Source: a virus. From it: a DNA stretch of 64,000 nt. Positions 3 to 56,420 of the stretch are shown here, piece by piece (the first letter of the stretch is position 1; every line of letters begins with the position of its first letter). The stretch covers positions 32,985-96,984 of the IMG/VR virus record IMGVR_UViG_3300025324_000011; one strand, given 5' to 3'. Below the pieces are notes generated by a model, which worked only from the letters and a program-made list of their open reading frames with translations, was not told the origin of the DNA and ran no database searches. Made by a program: the position numbers and the translations under genes.

Positions 3-266
3 TATTCCGCGAGAATTGCGCGTCCCGACGCATTAGCCGTCACGCACATGGATCGCCGCCCATCCAATAAAGTTGCGATTGAATACAATGGCGGATTACC
101 GAGGTATAAGGATGAACCGCATTTGATCCGGGCAATGAATCAATCGCTCGGCGTTGAAATCGAATATCAATTCTTCGGCCCTACCGCCTCATACGGCAGG
201 GCATTGCGAGACGAGAGAAGGCGCCGCCTTGATTACGCTGGACAAGCGATCCATTCAAACGCTTGA
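3..266 (+). CDS. 3' end of an unknown gene entering from the left edge
   Basis: The reading frame is open from the first complete codon of the window, so this is the C-terminal part of a longer gene. An ATG lies at 48 but has no ribosome site in front of it. The readable part is mixed and charged (IEYNGGLPRYKDEPHLI near its middle) and ends in an Arg-rich tail. I do not recognise a family. It ends just before regulatory element copy 1, on the same strand. Confidence 0.45.
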   Translation, partial: YSARIARPDALAVTHMDRRPSNKVAIEYNGGLPRYKDEPHLIRAMNQSLGVEIEYQFFGPTASYGRALRDERRRRLDYAGQAIHSNA

Positions 267-390
267 ATTCAATCCCGTGGATTTTGTCCAACTAATTGAA
301 CCGAGAAGCTCTAGACATAGCGCTTGGCGCGACGTAGGCCACTATATCTAGTGTTGGCGCTGTTGGCACGGTGTCTGCAAGAGATATGGA
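248..390 (+). promoter_or_regulatory. Repeat element copy 1: sigma-54-like promoter with upstream dyads
   Basis: First of three related elements (others at 21181 and 27467). The core reads TTGGCACGGTGTCTGCA at 363-379, with GG (365-366) and GC (377-378) exactly ten bases apart, the -24/-12 layout of RpoN promoters. Just upstream is a small hairpin, CACTA-tatc-TAGTG, then GTTGGCGC. A GATCCA block with TTGAAT and TCCAA repeats lies about 117 bases upstream of the -24 GG, in the range used by sigma-54 activators. The predicted start is near 389. Sequence is direct; function is inferred. Confidence 0.5.
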
Positions 391-405
391 GTGCGAGGCC
401 ACACC

Positions 406-570
406 ATGAACACGCTTCTCCAAGGCACAGAGAGCGCGCGAGAGCGGCGATCAGCTCGCAGTTGCGTTCGGCTGGAAGTATGCCTGAGCCCTGCGGGTAG
501 GGGACCCGGTCCCCTGCCCGGAGCACTCAAGCGCAAGAGCAGGACGCACGAAGAGGAGACCGGACAATGA
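406..570 (+). CDS. Possible small Arg-rich protein (54 aa)
   Basis: ATG follows GAGG by seven bases, and the TGA overlaps the next ATG (ATGA), as is common in this genome. The product is Arg/Gly/Pro-rich with no recognisable domain. It would fill the otherwise empty leader between repeat copy 1 and the gene at 567. The alternative is an untranslated leader; composition alone does not settle it. Confidence 0.3.
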   Translation: MNTLLQGTESARERRSARSCVRLEVCLSPAGRGPGPLPGALKRKSRTHEEETGQ

Positions 571-776
571 CATATCAAATCACGCGGCACAGCGGGACAA
601 GAAAATTCACCTGGGCGTGGTGCAACACACTGGAGGAAGCTGTCAGAATTGCAAATTCTGTCAGCATAAAAATTGTAGGAGAGCTGACCATCGTCGACTG
701 CAACACGGGCAAAAGATTCACGATTGCTCAAGCGATTGCTCAAGCGCAGGCCCGGAAAGAGCAGCTCGGAGCCTAG
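567..776 (+). CDS. Small unknown phage protein (69 aa)
   Basis: Starts after GAAGAGGAGACCGGACA, a good ribosome site. The product is mixed alpha/beta in appearance, with W-A-W-C near residue 17 and a short repeat (IAQAIAQAQ) near the C-terminus. It resembles short surface-binding phage proteins that begin with a TYQI-type strand, but no family is recognised. It is the first well-supported gene after repeat copy 1. A 19-base leader (GAACGACAAACCACAAGGA) follows its stop and recurs at 1022. Confidence 0.6.
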   Translation: MTYQITRHSGTRKFTWAWCNTLEEAVRIANSVSIKIVGELTIVDCNTGKRFTIAQAIAQAQARKEQLGA

Positions 777-2711: not shown

Positions 2712-4079
2712 ATGGCGACCGAATACGATGGTGCCAAACGGGTAGATGCGCAGCGCTATCCTTGGGAGGAATTTTCGCGCGTCAAGATTGACGCTGCGCG
2801 CTCCTGTCGATGGACAGGGGCGCAGGAAGACCCGGCGGTTTGGCGAAAATTCCTCGAGAGTCTCGTTGTCTCGGGGCAGATCCAGCCATGCGTTATGGCG
2901 AAGGTCCCCCCGAACAAGGAAATCCATCTTCTTGTCGGATCTCGCCGCTTCCTGGGGATCAAGGAAATCAATGAAAATCTGCCTGAGTGGCAGGCTTGGA
3001 TTGAGTCCAAGATCGAGGAAATTGCGAATCGCCTAGTCGCCGACACCACGCTCTCAGAGGCGCTCGCCGACGAATTGCATTCCTTGAAGCGTGTCTACGA
3101 GGACGCACGCAAGCGCATAGAAGTCCCGATGTCGCTCATCTTCATGTCGCGGCAGGTTAGGTCTCGGGAGGAGGCTGACCGTATTGCCTTGGAGGAAAAT
3201 GACAACAGGCTGGATATGTCGCCGATGGACCGTGCGAACTTCGCCTACACGAAAAAGCAGAGAGGGGAAACCAATCGCGAGATCGCCGTGGCGATGAAGC
3301 TCAAATCGGCAACCGCTGTCAAGAATCTTCTAGAATATATCAGTCTCATACCCGAGGCTCAGGAACTGCTTCATCAAGGGCATCTCACTGAGGCCCTAGC
3401 GGGAAGAATGAGGCGATTGCCAGCGGAGAGGCAACTAGAATTCTGTCTCGCCGCCAAGGAAGGCAAAAAGCCTTCGGAGCTTCTCAGACAAGCCAATTCT
3501 GAATCCCGCCTAGGTGGCGAACAGGTACTCCGTTCCGCCGCAGAGTTGCGTCAGAAACTCGCTGAAATCCGCAGTAAGGACGGAGACTTGATCGTAAAAA
3601 CCATTGCGGCTTGGCTACTGGAGTGGGTAAACGGGAATCCAGATGCCCCGGATCTGGAGACGATCTTCGCTGCCGACACTCTACCCGAGCCGCCGAAGCC
3701 TCCCGAGCCGAAACCGCCAAAGAGCCCAGGGGTTCCGAAGCCACCGAAGGTTCAAAAACCGAAGAAGGAAAAGAAAGCGAAAAAAGCTACTAGCGGTAAG
3801 CGGGGGCGCCCTCCCGGATCGAAGAACAAGAAACCGGCGCAGGCGGCATTACCGCTCCCCATGGATCCCGACGCCGACGCGCAGGAAGAATACGCTGACG
3901 ATGTCCCGGCAATTGAGCGCGCGGAAGACATCGAGGTTCTGGAAGCCGAAGACGATACGCGCATGATCAGCGCCAGGGGGCTCCTCGACCCCGACGCAGG
4001 GTATGCCGATCCCTTCGAGGATCGGTCAATCATGGAAGCATTCGGGGATTCTGCCGTAGCCCGCGAGTGGCAGTGCTGA
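2712..4079 (+). CDS. ParB-like nuclease/partition-domain protein (455 aa)
   Basis: Strong ribosome site AAAAAAGGAGGAGAACG. The N-terminal ~100 residues carry the ParB/Srx-type pattern ending in LLVGSRRFLGIKEIN, equivalent to the GxRRxxA box. A second block (residues ~155-240) has EENDNRLDMSP followed by a helix-turn-helix-like region (TNREIAVAMKLKSATAVKNL). The C-terminus is disordered, with Pro/Lys repeats, an AT-hook-like GKRGRPPGSKNKK, and an acidic tail. The family includes partition proteins, CTPases and phage nucleases. No ParA was found, so a regulatory or nuclease role is as likely as partition. Confidence 0.75.
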   Translation: MATEYDGAKRVDAQRYPWEEFSRVKIDAARSCRWTGAQEDPAVWRKFLESLVVSGQIQPCVMAKVPPNKEIHLLVGSRRFLGIKEINENLPEWQAWIESKIEEIANRLVADTTLSEALADELHSLKRVYEDARKRIEVPMSLIFMSRQVRSREEADRIALEENDNRLDMSPMDRANFAYTKKQRGETNREIAVAMKLKSATAVKNLLEYISLIPEAQELLHQGHLTEALAGRMRRLPAERQLEFCLAAKEGKKPSELLRQANSESRLGGEQVLRSAAELRQKLAEIRSKDGDLIVKTIAAWLLEWVNGNPDAPDLETIFAADTLPEPPKPPEPKPPKSPGVPKPPKVQKPKKEKKAKKATSGKRGRPPGSKNKKPAQAALPLPMDPDADAQEEYADDVPAIERAEDIEVLEAEDDTRMISARGLLDPDAGYADPFEDRSIMEAFGDSAVAREWQC

Positions 4080-5441: not shown

Positions 5442-6548
5442 ATGCGGATAAGAGTCCACAGGCAATCGCTCCTCTCCTCCTTGCAAAAACTTTCCCATCT
5501 CACGAAGGGAAAAACGCTCCCGTTGTTGAAAGACGTTCTACTGTACGCAGAGGGCGGCGATCTAATCGTCGCCGCAACTGACCTGGAGTCAACGGCGCTT
5601 CATCGCCATGATGAGGCAGTAGAATCCCCGGGACAGCCGTTTGCAATCGACCGCGAACGACTCGCGCGTGCAGTCGATGCCATGGGTGGCGAGGAAGTCA
5701 TCGCCGAGGTCGGAGATGGTTTCCTTAACCTCGGAGAGGGAATGACGATCAGGTTCATTCCAGCCGACGCGCCCAACTTTCCGACGCTTCCGTCTTGGGA
5801 GCCCGGTAGTCCCATAGCACTTCCATTTTCTCCCGTGGTTGCCGCCCTATCGCGGGCCTACCTATTTGCCTCAAAAGAGGAATCTCGTTCCGAGATTGCC
5901 TCTATCCAATTGACGACAGAGAAGAAAAAGGTTTCAGTCAGCAGCACGAACGGCAGGCGCCTATGGTATGAGTCGCTGCCGATTGACGATGCTGAATCGA
6001 CAGAATTTCTGATTCCCTCCTTCGCCGCAAAGCTGATCGATTCTCTCCCGTCATCGAAGGAGCTACGCTTGGCGAGAAGCGATGCCAGCCCAGGGCACAT
6101 TTATGTCTGGAGCGACGATTCCGAAAGGCTCATGATCAGGGCGTGGGAAGGAACATTTCCAAACGTAGAAACAATACTGAAACAGCAACCGGAGGCATCC
6201 TCATCATTCATTGCAGAGTCGGGGAGTGATCTTGTCTCTGCGCTACGAAGAGCGGCGGTTGTATCGCAAAACGCAAACCTGATCTGCGACAAAGATGGCC
6301 TCATGGTCGCCGCGTTCGGTGATGACACGGGCTCCGTCAGCGTAGCCGTTAGCGGAGAGAGCGAGACTGAGTTTGATCTCTCTCTTCCGATCGCTCAGCT
6401 CATAGAGACCTGCTCAGCGCTAGACGCAGGGAACGGAAATATCATCCTCCAGCATGCTTCTCTCGTGGGCGGGGGCGGAGGACCGCTATTCTTGACTTGC
6501 TCGGCGCATCCCGAGCGGATCTCCCTGGTTATGCCGATGCGGCGATAG
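5442..6548 (+). CDS. dnaN: DNA polymerase III beta subunit-like sliding clamp (368 aa)
   Basis: The length and three-domain repeat fit DnaN. The N-terminus (MRIRVHRQSLLSSLQKLSHL, then TLPLLKDVLLYAEGGDLIVA) is typical of the first clamp domain; later come the STNGRRLW block of domain two and the PMRR C-terminus that usually forms part of the partner-binding pocket. The ring tethers a replicative polymerase to DNA. ATG 5442 is preferred over TTG 5433. It overlaps nothing and precedes the helicase by seven bases. A phage-encoded clamp is uncommon, and no polymerase lies in this window. Confidence 0.85.
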   Translation: MRIRVHRQSLLSSLQKLSHLTKGKTLPLLKDVLLYAEGGDLIVAATDLESTALHRHDEAVESPGQPFAIDRERLARAVDAMGGEEVIAEVGDGFLNLGEGMTIRFIPADAPNFPTLPSWEPGSPIALPFSPVVAALSRAYLFASKEESRSEIASIQLTTEKKKVSVSSTNGRRLWYESLPIDDAESTEFLIPSFAAKLIDSLPSSKELRLARSDASPGHIYVWSDDSERLMIRAWEGTFPNVETILKQQPEASSSFIAESGSDLVSALRRAAVVSQNANLICDKDGLMVAAFGDDTGSVSVAVSGESETEFDLSLPIAQLIETCSALDAGNGNIILQHASLVGGGGGPLFLTCSAHPERISLVMPMRR

Positions 6549-12874: not shown

Positions 12875-13183
12875 CTACGTAAGATCGAGATTGAGAACGG
12901 ACATCAGCTCGTTCACGATCTCGACGAGGGCATCCTCATTCGCCGTATACGGTCGCGCCTGAGCATCCCGCCGCGTCGTCACCAGCCCGCCGGCCTTGAG
13001 CTTCGCTAGGTGTTGTGAGACCGCCGAGAGCGAGATCTTGGCATGCTCCGCCAGATTCCCGACCCCGGTCTCTCCATCCGCGCGCAGCTTGGCGAGCATG
13101 CTGAGGCGGCTGGAATTCCCGAGCAGATTCACCGCCTCTGCCAGTTCATAGATGTCCATCGTTTCCTTGGTCTTCTTTGCCAT
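12875..13183 (-). CDS. ArsR-family winged-helix regulator (102 aa)
   Basis: Typical ArsR length and order: NLLGNSSRLSMLAKL, TGVGNLAEHAKISLSAVSQH (the recognition helix), LAKLKAGGLVTTRRDAQ wing, then a C-terminal dimer helix. No Cys metal-binding pair is present in alpha-3, so this is not an obvious metal sensor. The ribosome site is AAAGGAGGAAACAACGAA. A dyad GTTGTTcc...GGAAACAAC overlaps the leader and could be the autoregulatory operator (inference). Confidence 0.8.
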   Translation of the reverse strand: MAKKTKETMDIYELAEAVNLLGNSSRLSMLAKLRADGETGVGNLAEHAKISLSAVSQHLAKLKAGGLVTTRRDAQARPYTANEDALVEIVNELMSVLNLDLT

Positions 13184-17828: not shown

Positions 17829-18245
17829 TCAGGAATGCCTTGCTTTCTCGCGGTCTAGATCGATCATTAGGGTGCGGACTTTTTCAACCATCTCATCATA
17901 ATCACTCATCGCTTGGCGGATTGGCCGCACTGCGCGATGAAGCACAATGCCAGCAATAAGCGAGACAACCGCAGTCAAGATTAGCATTCCCGATTCGAGT
18001 CCGTAGTAGGGCTGGAAGATGACAACGACGCCAATCAAATGGGAGATCCCGCAGAAGGCGATGAATACCGATGCTAGCATCCATAGCGCAGGCTGCGGTA
18101 TTTTTGACTGCGATGAAAGAACTCTTACAATCGAAACGGGGATCCAGGTATAGGCAATAAAAATCAGGACGTTGCCTATGATGATAGCCCACAGAAGAAC
18201 TGGATCAGAAATACAAGATTCCCGAGCGATCGATAAAACTTCCAT
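17829..18245 (-). CDS. Ethylene-receptor-type (ETR1) membrane-domain protein (138 aa)
   Basis: Three membrane helices: residues ~17-43, ~53-75 and ~84-106. The sequence IFIAYTWIP (28-36) and CGISHLI (65-71) align without gaps to IAYFSIP and CGATHLI of plant ETR1 (recalled), placing Cys65 and His69, the copper/ethylene ligands, at identical positions; Asn25 replaces Asp25. FQPYYGLESGMLILTAVVSL matches the third helix of bacterial histidine kinases with this domain. Here the kinase is absent: only a ~30-residue helical tail follows. It sits second from the end of the cassette. Confidence 0.65.
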   Translation of the reverse strand: MEVLSIARESCISDPVLLWAIIIGNVLIFIAYTWIPVSIVRVLSSQSKIPQPALWMLASVFIAFCGISHLIGVVVIFQPYYGLESGMLILTAVVSLIAGIVLHRAVRPIRQAMSDYDEMVEKVRTLMIDLDREKARHS

Positions 18246-20366: not shown

Positions 20367-20388
20367 GATGCAACCTCCGAAGTTGAAG

Positions 20389-20460
20389 TGGGGCCAGCAG
20401 GGATCGAACCTGCGACCATCCGCTTAAGAGGCGGCAGCTCTACCGCTGAGCTATGGCCCC
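20389..20460 (-). tRNA. tRNA-Lys (anticodon CTT)
   Basis: Minus strand: acceptor GGGGCCA pairs with TGGCCCC, discriminator A. D stem GCTC/GAGC with AGCGGTA loop. Anticodon arm CCGC-CTCTTAA-GCGG, giving CTT at 34-36. T arm GCAGG-TTCGATC-CCTGC. CCA is not encoded. The outermost anticodon-stem pair is a G-A mismatch. It reads Lys AAG. Confidence 0.85.
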
Positions 20461-21120: not shown

Positions 21121-21180
21121 GGTTGACGCCTCCCGCGTAACATGCTAACATAGGACCGCCATGAGATGCAAGCGCCAACA

Positions 21181-21316
21181 GATCCAACGCCTTGAATCCA
21201 AGTTTCCGTAGAGATCCAAGGAAATGGACTGACCGGCGCTAGATCTAGTGCATGAGGCCATAGACACCACTATATGTTGTGTTGGCGCTGTTGGCACAGG
21301 TGCTGCATTAGTATGG
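21181..21316 (+). promoter_or_regulatory. Repeat element copy 2: sigma-54-like promoter with upstream dyads
   Basis: TTGGCACAGGTGCTGCA at 291-307 of this kilobase, GG (21293-21294) and GC (21305-21306) ten bases apart. Upstream hairpin CACCAC-tatat-GTTGTG and GTTGGCGC as in the other copies. GATCCAACGCCTTGAATCC begins 112 bases upstream of the -24 GG. A second candidate promoter, TTGACG-17-TAACAT at 21123-21151, lies upstream and could start a 16-codon leader ORF at 21161. Confidence 0.5.
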
Positions 21317-21379
21317 ACTCAGGACGGACAAAGGACAGACCAGAAGCGAGACAGGATAAACAACGGAAGAGAGGACAAA

Positions 21380-21562
21380 ATGAGACTGACCAAGGCAGAC
21401 CACGAGAAGATTAACAAGCTGGCTGACAAGTACTACGATTGCCGCGACCGAGAGGGCAGGACGCACGAAGAGGCAGTCTCTGAGGTCTTCGAGCTGTCAT
21501 CTGAGATTAGTGCATCTATGCACCTTGTCCGGATCACTCTTTCTACTATTGCAGTGGTCTAA
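21380..21562 (+). CDS. Small acidic-basic helical protein (60 aa)
   Basis: ATG after GAAGAGAGGACAAA. The product (MRLTKADHEKINKLADKYYD, then EEAVSEVFELSSEISA) is helical. First gene after repeat copy 2. No family recognised. Confidence 0.55.
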   Translation: MRLTKADHEKINKLADKYYDCRDREGRTHEEAVSEVFELSSEISASMHLVRITLSTIAVV

Positions 21563-26582: not shown

Positions 26583-27457
26583 GCGAAGCGCTTGCTGTAA
26601 CCTATACGGTGACCGCCGAAGACATCGCGGCGAAGCGATTGGCCTACGATGTCCTTGCGGCAGATACGCCGCAGGGATACGAATCCGTGCGAGTCGCTAT
26701 CGCAGATTGTAGGGCGACCCGCACCTCCATCGAAAAACGGAGAGTCGAACTGAAGGCGGACGCATTGGCTTTTGGGCGGCGCGTCGATTCGATCGCAAGG
26801 GAATTGACATCCCTGATCGAATCGATCGAAGAGCCGCTGAGGCTCAAAAAGGCGGCCGTGGATGACGCAAGGGAACGCGCCAAGGCGGAGAAGGAAGCCG
26901 AGGCACGGCGCATCGTTGAAGAGGAATTGCGAATCGAAAGGGAGGCGAGGGAGACTCAGGAGCACGCTGCGCGGGAAGCCGAGGAGAAGCGGCTGGCAGA
27001 GGAGCGCGAAAGACTGGCCGCAGAACGCGCCGAGATCGAACGGCAGCGCGCGGAATCGGAGGCAAGGGAAAGGGCCGCATCCGAAGCACTGAGAGCAGAG
27101 AAGGAAGCCCTGGAGACGGAGCGACAGCGCCTCGAAGCCGAGAAGCGGGCCGCTGAGCATGCAGAGTTTGAGCGGCTCGCAAAGATCCGCGCCGAAGCAG
27201 AGGCGAAGGAGCTGGCGCGCTTGGCGGTAATCGCCGCCGAGGAAGAGCGGATCGCTGAGGCGGAGCGTGCCGAGGGGCACCGCAAGCGCTTGGAGGCCCT
27301 GAAGCCCGACAAGGACAAGCTCGCCGCCTTCGCCGCCCGCCTACGCGAAGCGGAGGCCCCTATCGTCAAGACGCGAGATGGTAAGCGAGCACTGGCGGTG
27401 GCGGTCGCTGCGCTCGAAGAGATCGCCACTGCCTTGGAGGCGTTCGGCTCGCCATGA
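26579..27457 (+). CDS. DUF1351-like coiled-coil phage protein (292 aa)
   Basis: The first ~90 residues (AYDVLAADTPQGYESVRVAI, KRRVELKADALAFGRRVDSI, ELTSLIESIEEPL) match the DUF1351 pattern found beside phage recombination genes. A ~160-residue Arg/Glu/Ala coiled coil follows, then a C-terminal domain with ALKPDKDKLAAFAARLREA. No RecT or ERF gene is adjacent here. The ATG of the next frame overlaps its TGA and opens into repeat element copy 3. Confidence 0.6.
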   Translation: MSEALAVTYTVTAEDIAAKRLAYDVLAADTPQGYESVRVAIADCRATRTSIEKRRVELKADALAFGRRVDSIARELTSLIESIEEPLRLKKAAVDDARERAKAEKEAEARRIVEEELRIEREARETQEHAAREAEEKRLAEERERLAAERAEIERQRAESEARERAASEALRAEKEALETERQRLEAEKRAAEHAEFERLAKIRAEAEAKELARLAVIAAEEERIAEAERAEGHRKRLEALKPDKDKLAAFAARLREAEAPIVKTRDGKRALAVAVAALEEIATALEAFGSP

Positions 27458-27466
27458 ACCCGATTC

Positions 27467-27603
27467 GATCCAATTCCTTGGATTCAAGACGCTGGATTTT
27501 ATCCAGGGAATTGGATGCCGATATCCTAGATGCGGTAGCGTTGACTGCCTGCACCACCATATGTGGTGTTGGCGCAGTTGGCATGATGGCTGCAATAGAT
27601 AGG
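27467..27603 (+). promoter_or_regulatory. Repeat element copy 3: sigma-54-like promoter with upstream dyads
   Basis: TTGGCATGATGGCTGCA at 27578-27594, GG (27580-27581) and GC (27592-27593) ten bases apart. The hairpin is perfect here: CACCAC-catat-GTGGTG. The upstream block has CCAATTCC and GGAATTGG as an inverted repeat with CTTGGAT and TTATCCA. GATCCA lies 113 bases from the -24 GG. An open frame from ATG 27454 runs through the element into the next gene, so a coding origin for part of the conservation must be considered. Confidence 0.5.
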
Positions 27604-27648
27604 GACCGAGACGACAAAACGGAGCCAAAACCAAAGGAGATGGCCGCC

Positions 27649-27888
27649 ATGAAAATCGGGACTCAAATCTACTACACGGGCGACTGTGCCAATGAACCCG
27701 GGGTCTTTTACGTGAGTGAGGTCTTCCCGGCTGGTTACTTCACCCTGAGTGAGCGCGGATGGGATGGGGCGGGTCGTATCATTCGCGGTGTTCGACCGTC
27801 ACAGGTCGGTAGCCAGTACGAGGGGCACTGCGACCCCCGCTTTGTCCTACTGGACGCCGTAGAGGCTTGGCGGGCGCAGCGCGCGTAG
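27649..27888 (+). CDS. Small beta-rich protein (79 aa)
   Basis: Start set at ATG 27649 by CAAAGGAGATGGCCGCC; the same frame is open back to 27454. Strand-rich (MKIGTQIYYTGDCANEPGVF, then YFTLSERGWDGAGRII), ending in a helix. No family recognised. First gene after repeat copy 3. Confidence 0.55.
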   Translation: MKIGTQIYYTGDCANEPGVFYVSEVFPAGYFTLSERGWDGAGRIIRGVRPSQVGSQYEGHCDPRFVLLDAVEAWRAQRA

Positions 27889-54278: not shown

Positions 54279-56420
54279 TCAGTCGGCCAAGGCAATCAAC
54301 CGCCTAACAATTGTCTTCGCGTCCAATCCTACGCCCGTTCGCAGTAGTCCATTCTCAGTTCCAAGATCGGAGACCAGCTTATTCAGGCGATCGATCTCGG
54401 TCCGCAGCCTTATCACTTCGCTGCTGTCTGGCGTCGGCGAAGGATCAGGCTTCGGCGGCCCTGGTTCAGGCTTCGGATCGGGTTTCGGCAGCGGCTGCTT
54501 CGGCATGACCAGTGCGTAGTACGCCACGATTGGCATGCCGCCTTGGTCACGCGCGCCGTTCCAGGCCATGGCGAGGTCGGTAAAAATCTCTTTCCATAGA
54601 GGATCCCCGTCCGAAACAGGAAGATCAATGATTATACCGAACACCCCGGCCGCGTTGGCTCTCCGTACTAGTTCAATGGAGAAGGTCTCTCCCACCAAGA
54701 GCCCCTTCCCATCCTTAATCCCTCTTGTCTGACCATAGGCCGCGACCCAGAGGCCGTCCGTAGCAGGCTCCGGGAATGGCGCTTCCGGAAACAGAGTCCC
54801 CGTTGGATACTTCTGCGCCGACCCGCCTCCGACGCGCATAGCGGTCATCGTGAATCCAAGGGATTTTAGCGCCGATGCCATAATCCGCACGTGCTTATCC
54901 TCCTGCGGCTTAGGCCGCGGTCCATTTCCTTCATCAAGGCCAGAAACGATTTCTATGACGTGTCCGAAAGGAGGGATGTACGCTCTCGGCTGCTCGCTAT
55001 CAAGCTGTTCATCTCGAAGAACCCATGTTTTTGGCAGTGCTAAGCCAATAACGATCGCTCCGGGACCAAGCGCTGTTTTCGTCGGTAATTTGACGAGTAA
55101 CCCACCTGCTTCGCTTAACAGGGTTGCTTTCATTCCATCCCAAAGAAGTCGATAAATAGCGGTAGCCCCCCAGGGAACTTGGATTCCGCCCTTCTGTTCA
55201 CCGCTTGCCTCCAATCGGTGATGACCCCTACCCTGACGTCCAATCGTCCAAGCGAATCCCTGCTTCCACTTCTTCTGATTATCAATCGGCCCAACGCTGA
55301 CGCCGATCAACGGGATAATGCCACCCGCGGGGCGATTATTCGGAAACGACACGCGCACCTTGAGATCTAAGGGAAGTCCATCATATGGAATGACAAGCGA
55401 GGTTGACGAGGATGGAGCGCTGCGCCCTGGATCTCGAGGAAGTACAATCCGCGTACCACTATTGATTACTGGCCGCGGCTGAGGTTCTGATGGTTTTTTA
55501 TCTGATGCCGGCGCATCCGCTTCGTCGAACCATGGCACTAGATGCAAACCGACAGTGATATCGCTTACGAGAAGCCCCGGAGGCAGCGGTAGGACATTGT
55601 CGCCGTAAACATCAGAACCATACCGAATGAACGCGCTGTCAATACCATCGATTTCTGCCCAAGAATAATCTCCGCGACGCGCGCGAAATCCTCCATCTGG
55701 CGGCAGGAACCTGCGCTCCTTGGTAACGTTATCCCAAGTCCCCGCAAGAATCGGAGTTGTATTGCTGTTAATCGTTCTGGCGTGAACGACCGCCTTGCCA
55801 CCCTCTGTTTCTACGATCCTGATTGGATACGCCACCGGTAGATCTTGGATGTCTAGGTCAAGGGAGGCCATGTAGAGATCGTGGAGTCTCTGCTTGAGCA
55901 GCAGGCCGGCATGATACGTCCACTTCATTCGAAGCCCATATTTGGCGGCCTGCGCCCACGATTCCGCCTGCTTGAGTCCGGCTTGATCGTCGCGCGCCAA
56001 GGCGAGCAGCCACTCATACCTGCCTGCGTGCGGATAGTGGCCACCGCTACGTTGCCCGAACCATAGGCACGTTCCATCTCCGCACTCTGTGGCCTCCAGA
56101 AATGCAAGAAACCAAGAACACCAGCTGGCGGCCGATGGGATCTCGGTTGAGACCGACGCTTCGGCCAAAAAACTCCAATCGCTATAAATCCACGAACAGA
56201 CCTCGGTACCACCCCAAGAGAGGCGCTCACGTTGGTGCCGCTCGTGCCAAGAGGCGACAGCGCGATCCTTGTTTTCGCCCAAGAGAATTCGTACAGCGTC
56301 ACGGAGGCGCGGGCGATTTTCTCCTGGTTGGTTATCGTTCTTGTAGCCGAAAGTGTTTGGGGCCTTACCCTCGATGGCTGCAAGAAGTTCCTGGCCGAGG
56401 GTCTGTTCGTCGCCAGCCAC
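54279..56420 (-). CDS. Large unknown protein with Pro-rich linker and C-terminal helix (713 aa)
   Basis: The first ~190 residues are Trp- and Cys-rich (WSFLAEASVSTEIPSAASWC, CGDGTCLWFGQRSGGHYPH). The middle is strand-rich with FAWTIGRQGRGHHRLEASGE. Residues ~560-650 (LWVAAYGQTRGIKDGKGLLV, AAGVFGIIIDLPVSDGDPLW, GMPIVAYYALVMPK) look like part of a TIM-barrel-like hydrolase domain. Then a Pro/Lys/Asp linker and a coiled coil (RLRTEIDRLNKLVSDLG). Structural or lytic roles are both possible; no family recognised. Confidence 0.5.
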   Translation of the reverse strand: MAGDEQTLGQELLAAIEGKAPNTFGYKNDNQPGENRPRLRDAVRILLGENKDRAVASWHERHQRERLSWGGTEVCSWIYSDWSFLAEASVSTEIPSAASWCSWFLAFLEATECGDGTCLWFGQRSGGHYPHAGRYEWLLALARDDQAGLKQAESWAQAAKYGLRMKWTYHAGLLLKQRLHDLYMASLDLDIQDLPVAYPIRIVETEGGKAVVHARTINSNTTPILAGTWDNVTKERRFLPPDGGFRARRGDYSWAEIDGIDSAFIRYGSDVYGDNVLPLPPGLLVSDITVGLHLVPWFDEADAPASDKKPSEPQPRPVINSGTRIVLPRDPGRSAPSSSTSLVIPYDGLPLDLKVRVSFPNNRPAGGIIPLIGVSVGPIDNQKKWKQGFAWTIGRQGRGHHRLEASGEQKGGIQVPWGATAIYRLLWDGMKATLLSEAGGLLVKLPTKTALGPGAIVIGLALPKTWVLRDEQLDSEQPRAYIPPFGHVIEIVSGLDEGNGPRPKPQEDKHVRIMASALKSLGFTMTAMRVGGGSAQKYPTGTLFPEAPFPEPATDGLWVAAYGQTRGIKDGKGLLVGETFSIELVRRANAAGVFGIIIDLPVSDGDPLWKEIFTDLAMAWNGARDQGGMPIVAYYALVMPKQPLPKPDPKPEPGPPKPDPSPTPDSSEVIRLRTEIDRLNKLVSDLGTENGLLRTGVGLDAKTIVRRLIALAD

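Follow-up and report, generated by a model that had tools for sequence, protein, structure and literature searches.

Gene content and setting of the three elements

The window analyzed here is a stretch of 64,000 nucleotides, corresponding to bases 32,985-96,984 of the 96,984-base virus record IMGVR_UViG_3300025324_000011, which comes from an uncultured phage. Genes were called with a simple custom script. The phage is tailed, with portal, HK97-type capsid, tape-measure-like and minor tail genes on the minus strand, and the plus strand encodes a ParB-like protein, a DNA polymerase processivity factor, a helicase, methyltransferases and an exonuclease. The terminase gene lies outside the window, in the remainder of the record.

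Three related elements are present on the plus strand, with cores at 351-379, 21279-21307 and 27566-27594, the places at which an earlier sequence-only reading had located sigma-54-like promoters. Copy 1 precedes small genes that run into the replication genes, whereas copies 2 and 3 precede small-gene arrays that begin at 21380 and 27649. Measured from the element ends given in that reading (390, 21316 and 27603), the coordinates of the first gene starts differ by 177, 64 and 46 bases for copies 1, 2 and 3, respectively, in agreement with the 45-180 bases that had been claimed. Given the small size of the genes and, for copy 1, the position ahead of the replication genes, these arrays would be expected to be expressed early. 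The genes referred to below are as follows.

567-776 (+), first called gene after copy 1, 69 aa, without NCBIfam match
21380-21562 (+), first called gene after copy 2, 60 aa, without NCBIfam match
27649-27888 (+), first gene after copy 3, 79 aa, without NCBIfam match
2712-4079 (+), ParB-like gene, 2.3 kb from copy 1, best E value 1.6e-5
12875-13183 (-), ArsR/SmtB-family regulator gene, amid the plus-strand replication module

The start of the first gene after copy 3 was picked by eye as an ATG with a ribosome-site-like AAAGGAG, within the open frame 27454-27888. The match of the ParB-like protein to its family is weak (17.2 bits, under the family cut-off), and the closest solved relative of the ArsR-family protein is NolR (E value 2.7e-11).

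Some other features of the window were observed in passing. A single tRNA-Lys (CTT) gene lies near copy 2 at 20388-20460 (-), and a 713-aa protein is encoded among the head genes at 54279-56420 (-); searches of Pfam, PHROGs and phage records with the latter gave no match. A 138-aa membrane-like protein, encoded at 17829-18245 (-), matches the sensor domain of ethylene receptors (Pfam ETR1_N, E value 5e-20) and is too short to include the kinase part. It contains a C-x3-H pair (FCGISH), which we take to resemble the copper site of ethylene receptors. An ethylene-binding-like protein would be an odd thing to find on a phage.

Copy number and anatomy of the elements

The core consensus GTGTTGGCGCnGTTGGCAy-N5-CTGCA is present in all three copies, and a scan of the whole 96,984-base record at up to 3 mismatches returned these three sites and no others. 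A matrix derived from the copies scored them at 63.7-65.1, and the next-best place in the record at 7.6. These two scans gave no additional degenerate copies. As had been stated, GG and GC are ten bases apart in every copy of TTGGCAY-N5-CTGCA. The features of each copy are listed below, and distances in the text are counted from the first G of the -24 GG.

Copy 1
253-268 (+), activator-like dyad 1, ATTCA-N6-TGAAT, centre about -129.5 from the predicted start
267-282 (+), overlapping middle dyad, ATTCA-N6-TGGAT
286-301 (+), activator-like dyad 2, GTCCA-N6-TGAAC, centre about -96.5
311-315 (+), CTAGA, invariant
340-353 (+), 14-bp dyad CACTA-N4-TAGTG, next to the -24 box
353-360 (+), GTTGGCGC, invariant
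363-379 (+), -24/-12 core TTGGCAC-N5-CTGCA, predicted transcription start near 390

Copy 2
21182-21197 (+), dyad 1, ATCCA-N6-TGAAT
21214-21229 (+), dyad 2, ATCCA-N6-TGGAC, 79 bases before GG
21239-21243 (+), CTAGA, invariant
21268-21281 (+), 14-bp dyad CACTA-N4-TTGTG, four of five arm pairs
21281-21288 (+), GTTGGCGC, invariant
21291-21307 (+), -24/-12 core TTGGCAC-N5-CTGCA, predicted start near 21318

Copy 3
27468-27483 (+), dyad 1, ATCCA-N6-TGGAT
27482-27497 (+), overlapping middle dyad, ATTCA-N6-TGGAT
27501-27516 (+), dyad 2, ATCCA-N6-TGGAT, 79 bases before GG
27526-27530 (+), CTAGA, invariant
27555-27568 (+), 14-bp dyad CACCA-N4-TGGTG
27568-27575 (+), GTTGGCGC, invariant
27578-27594 (+), -24/-12 core TTGGCAT-N5-CTGCA, predicted start near 27605

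Upstream of the core, each copy carries two 16-bp inverted repeats of the form RTYCA-N6-TGRAY, 32-33 bp apart. Dyad 1 starts 112, 111 and 112 bases before GG in copies 1, 2 and 3, and dyad 2 starts exactly 79 bases before GG in all three. In copies 1 and 3, a third, overlapping match to RTYCA-N6-TGRAY lies between the two dyads, and in copy 1 the right half of dyad 1 shares bases with the stop codon that ends the open frame 48-266. The sequence-only reading had described this region as a conserved block beginning GATCCA. Such a block does begin 117, 112 and 113 bases before GG, but it resolves into the two dyads. All copies have an invariant CTAGA that begins at -54, in the interval separating the dyads from the core. 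A 14-bp dyad, CACYA-N4-TRGTG, spans -25 to -12 and abuts the -24 box, and the invariant GTTGGCGC precedes TTGGCAY-N5-CTGCA in each copy. The three copies thus have in common their motifs, a fixed geometry and a placement ahead of small-gene arrays.

Strict RTYCA-N6-TGRAY occurs 11 times in the record, with eight of these occurrences inside the three elements, compared with 1.6 expected per 97 kb (60 simulations), a comparison that is partly circular because the consensus was read from the copies. The inverted-repeat form itself and the paired nature of the arm changes between copies (TTCA/TGAA versus TCCA/TGGA) stand outside this circularity. All strict pairs less than 40 bp apart in the record fall within the elements, and the combination of dyad 2 and core at the fixed spacing gave three matches in the window but none in any of 100 shuffles. 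The best summed arm match was 13 for dyad 2 and 14 for the 14-bp dyad; among 300 random triples, 13 was reached once and 14 never, although this null is lenient because random triples are not related copies.

The 14-bp dyad had previously been read as a hairpin with changing but still paired bases. The inverted repeat itself holds, in the common register CACYA-N4-TRGTG with 5, 4 and 5 of five arm pairs in copies 1, 2 and 3, but a hairpin at the RNA level is not supported. RNA folding of the region gave three different structures, with z values of -2.1, +1.6 and -1.65; given that the folds differ between the copies, the repeat reads as a DNA dyad. In an Rfam scan of the window, the tRNA was the sole match at gathering score. 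A structured RNA element was rejected, there being neither an Rfam family nor a fold common to the copies.

Conservation between the copies

Ungapped identities were calculated between pairs of copies. Identity is 85-92% just before the -24 box and falls to 20-60% inside the N5 spacer, while the flanking TTGGCAY and CTGCA are kept. Sigma-54 does not read the bases of the N5 spacer. In dyad 2 the identity is 62-81%, and around dyad 1, where copy 2 is shifted by one base, it is 39-67%. The spacer from dyad 2 to the core (-63 to -27) is 30-54% identical, and sequence farther upstream 14-23%. Motif blocks and their spacing are therefore kept while most of the intervening sequence has diverged. Copies 1 and 3 are also alike outside the motifs, with 75% identity in the stretch that separates the two dyads and 65% past the core, so that some of the likeness reflects plain common descent.

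Scoring of the core as a sigma-54 promoter

Binding of sigma-54 at sites in Salmonella was reportedly measured by chromatin precipitation. A scoring matrix was built from 29 intergenic sigma-54-bound sites of this organism given in a table of PMC3844500. With this matrix, copy 3 scored 18.5, copy 2 17.7 and copy 1 17.2. The known sites themselves, scored by leave-one-out, ranged from 14.3 to 23.0 with a median of 17.9, and copy 3 scored above 17 of the 29. No site with GG reached 17.2 in 73 other phage loci (1,102,091 bases, near-duplicates included), and simulated sequence yielded 0.175 sites of at least 17.2 per 97 kb (40 simulations).

Two further places in the record score above all three elements: L006:6098, at 19.8 and inside a called gene, and window position 2479 (+), TGGCACGGCAAATGCTTT, at 19.2. 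The latter lies inside the open frame 1822-2586, which the gene script did not call, upstream of the ParB-like gene. A third place, L006:9492 (-), scores 16.1 and is also inside a called gene. No strict dyad was found near any of these three positions. Given that five sites of at least 17.2 are far above the simulated rate, either chance matches are commoner in this record than in simulated sequence or L006:6098 and window 2479 are also sites; TGGCACGGCAAATGCTTT may be chance or a fourth site. The occurrence of such high scorers within frames means that a high score alone is no proof.

The two dyads, centred at about -96 and -129, would fall within the 80-200 bp range expected of activator sites. 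A site for DNA bending by IHF between such dyads and the core is common in sigma-54 promoters but not required. In the spacers of the three elements, no IHF-like site with 0-1 mismatches was found, and one with 2 mismatches occurs in copy 1 only.

Occurrence of the element elsewhere

Megablast of window positions 1-25000 against phages returned no relative, and a distant blastn search with copy 1 and its surroundings returned no match. Protein searches of phage records gave distant matches only (30 records for the capsid, 313 for the helicase). IMG/VR scans with the capsid, portal and ParB-like proteins found no relative. An IMG/VR scan with the helicase gave 73 loci at 35-54% identity. In two of them a single strict core-like match occurs, with no dyad, and a close pair of strict dyads is absent from all 73. 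Records very near the window may have been left out of all these searches. A scan with L007:11029-12048 recovered one relative, G001 (57%). Three called proteins have matches in it, two of these extending across most of the protein and one across 48 residues; the element is absent from it. No relative with the element was thus recovered.

Searches with the element itself, as the sequence-only reading had proposed, found the strict core in no other IMG/VR contig and in two GTDB genomes, both times within a bacterial open frame (423 and 265 aa). These two exact matches apparently arose by chance. A loose form of the core occurs in 113 IMG/VR stretches, 80 of which were examined; of the 80, 24 are not crossed by any open frame of at least 600 nt, and in none of these 24 does a TYCA-N6-TGRA dyad lie within 160 bases upstream. 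One virus contig, L104, carries a textbook sigma-54 core, TTGGCACGCGCATTGCA, at 5518-5534 (+) (G003:45578-45594), just ahead of an ATG with a ribosome-site-like GGAGGG, and L084 has a similar site; no TYCA-N6-TGRA dyad lies within 160 bases upstream of the L104 core. The combination of dyad 2 and core at the fixed spacing occurs ten times in IMG/VR, each time in an open frame (longest per locus 492-7176 nt) and never with a second dyad.

A scan for dyad and core at free spacing was made in 398 genomes of one phylum, that of the betaproteobacterial assembly L005. The CTGC form matched in two genomes and the TTGC form in six, compared with 0 and 1 for a reversed control pattern. Five of these eight matches lie in open frames longer than 800 nt, and the set includes the homologous pairs L208/L209 and L213/L214. 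Bacterial genomes L208 and L209 have in common, at 1500-1575, TTGGCACATTCGCTGCAATGA, which resembles a sigma-54 core, and 55 bases ahead of it CTCCAAATCATTGAAT; the core precedes a gene that by eye resembles an M20-type peptidase. The pair look like one real bacterial sigma-54 promoter, and that of L209 is also in a long antisense frame. Their CTCCAAATCATTGAAT is possibly the same kind of activator site as in the phage elements.

Alternative explanations

The elements could be read as a thrice-repeated promoter of the sigma-70 type (or of another sigma-70-family factor), with TTGGCA as the -35 box and the dyads as repressor or activator operators. TTGGCA agrees with TTGACA at five of six positions, and TATGGA lies 16 bases after it in copy 1 and 15 in copy 2. 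However, among -10 candidates at 15-19 bases the best agree with TATAAT at only 3, 3 and 2 of six positions and shift in spacing, and the would-be -10 is less conserved than CTGCA, which would fall unexplained in the spacer. No plus-strand sigma-70 match of at least 9/12 was found within the elements. A separate sigma-70-like sequence, TTGACG-N17-TAACAT with TG, is found upstream of copy 2 (21123-21151) and could serve the copy 2 array, and a minus-strand GTGCCA-N17-TATAGT is present in copies 1 and 2, but at copies 1 and 3 a minus-strand promoter would run against the plus-strand genes lying upstream. In the two regions scanned, 8 matches were found against 4.5 (sd 2.4) in shuffles, and 2 against 2.1 (sd 1.3), so that single matches say little. 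We regard a sigma-70-type promoter as unlikely. Another alternative is a non-promoter site for a DNA-binding protein, for example a partition or replication site of the ParB-like protein (2712-4079). Inverted repeats are present in every element and the ParB-like gene is 2.3 kb from copy 1, but the ParB match is weak, the orientation is constant with the elements 46-177 bases before gene arrays each time, and a sigma-54-grade core is present in all three copies, which makes this explanation improbable.

ArsR proteins bind inverted repeats, and the presence of an ArsR/SmtB-family gene (12875-13183) in the phage allows for an operator through which a phage regulator of this kind acts on the arrays via the dyads. 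Such regulators often bind before their own gene, yet strict RTYCA-N6-TGRAY is absent there, and -96 and -129 are far for simple repression; as an explanation of the elements this is very improbable, although it is compatible with a sigma-54 core. Either a ParB-like or an ArsR-family site may exist as an addition, but neither accounts for the core. Short dispersed promoters are typical of phages with a single-subunit RNA polymerase, and the 713-aa protein without family might be considered for such an enzyme. This gene sits among the head genes, however, and PF00940 had no match in the record, a weak argument since the same search matched none of 14 controls; we give the polymerase explanation only a very slight chance. 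Lastly, the conservation might reflect a leader peptide or protein end in the frame giving TTICxVGAVG, which, as the sequence-only reading had pointed out, is open in copies 2 and 3 and has a TAG upstream in copy 1. In copies 2 and 3 the open frame runs on into the first gene, and in copy 1 a TGA also follows soon after. Comparison of codons between the copies showed that 14 of 19 differences in this frame change the residue, as do 13-20 in each of the other five frames. A coding role for the element was rejected on this comparison, and the probability left to a conserved peptide is negligible.

Proposed mechanism and its consequences

In a sigma-54 promoter that has an enhancer, the -24/-12 core is accompanied by two inverted repeats about 100-130 bp upstream, the arrangement seen here. 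The core scores, the free N5 spacer, the dyads upstream and the lack of a good -10 support the promoter reading at the level of sequence, and each element probably combines a promoter dependent on sigma-54 (RpoN) with an enhancer of its own. Here, host sigma-54 RNA polymerase would bind TTGGCAY-N5-CTGCA as a closed complex. The two RTYCA-N6-TGRAY dyads, separated by three helical turns at about -96 and -129, would be occupied by an activator from the family of bacterial enhancer-binding proteins. The bound activator would then loop to the polymerase and open the complex by ATP hydrolysis, after which RNA synthesis would begin about 12 bases past GC and proceed into the small-gene array. Beside the -24 box, the 14-bp dyad CACYA-N4-TRGTG would likely be the site of a second regulator. 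What the sequence shows directly is the motifs, their fixed geometry, their copy number and their placement, and we infer binding, activation, start sites, the supply of both sigma-54 and activator by the host, and early timing.

A sigma-54 activator domain was not found in the record, which may be incomplete, whereas the identical search was positive in 14 of 14 control genomes. The activator is therefore probably a host protein, in which case a host signal would switch all three gene blocks in concert. Because sigma-54 polymerase depends on an ATP-driven activator to open DNA, a gene placed behind a promoter of this class stays silent until a specific signal is present. We give an even chance to the broader proposal that in this phage three small-gene blocks, one of them leading into the replication genes, are jointly controlled by sigma-54 promoters that carry their own enhancers and depend on an activator from the host, the blocks being expressed only when a host signalling pathway is on. 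If so, that pathway would be one for nutrient, envelope or other stress, and the infection programme would become a readout of host state that runs through an all-or-none class of promoter. The usual view is that phage gene blocks are read with the housekeeping sigma factor or by a polymerase that the phage itself encodes. A sigma-54 arrangement would give host nutrition or stress a direct route to decide the reading of phage gene blocks, and the elements offer precise bases at which this can be tested.

Relation to known sigma-54 systems

The sigma-54 promoter class is well known from bacteria; its ownership and use by a phage would be new. The glnA promoter driven by NtrC is a sigma-54 promoter with two activator sites and a comparable geometry. 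Like bacterial promoters of this two-site type, the elements show a ten-base interval between GG and GC in the -24/-12 core and, some 100-130 bp upstream, a pair of inverted repeats separated by about three turns. Unlike them, the elements are carried by a phage, in three copies, before small phage genes, and have an extra dyad that abuts the -24 box. The NtrC site is GCACC-N5-GGTGC, from which the RTYCA-N6-TGRAY dyads differ when read by eye. Among the Salmonella sites in the accessible part of PMC3844500, those of astC, TGGCACGAATGCTGCAAT, and glmY, TGGCACAATTACTGCATA, are close to the phage core.

NtrX sites of Sinorhizobium meliloti are given as CAAN2-5TTG in PMC9223101, the main text of which contains neither of the words sigma54 and rpoN. 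In agreement with this motif, which is short and common, CAA-N4-TTG centres four of the six main phage dyads, whereas the other two break it. The likeness to NtrX sites, so far as that source describes them, is put forward as a lead only.

In the full-text literature searched, no report of sigma-54 control of phage gene blocks was found; this is no proof of novelty because subscription papers were mostly outside its scope. Such control is likewise unreported in the accessible parts of PMC3391216, PMC7693777, PMC3844500, PMC8743547, PMC3656092, PMC12316311 and PMC5053324. As far as these partial texts extend, phage phi1422 has a regulator linked to sigma-54 (PMC3391216), Pectobacterium phage Q19 a putative sigma-54-like factor (PMC7693777) and Xp10 a protein, P7, that blocks sigma-54 polymerase (PMC5053324). 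Those phages carry sigma-54-linked proteins, whereas the present phage carries promoters, with no activator found in the record. According to the available sections of PMC3844500, four genes of the Salmonella prophage Fels-2, in two operons, change with rpoN and are lower when rpoN is present, and the psp genes respond to phage via sigma-54. On that account the Fels-2 genes are not activated by rpoN and the psp genes belong to the host, and both are unlike the elements of this phage.
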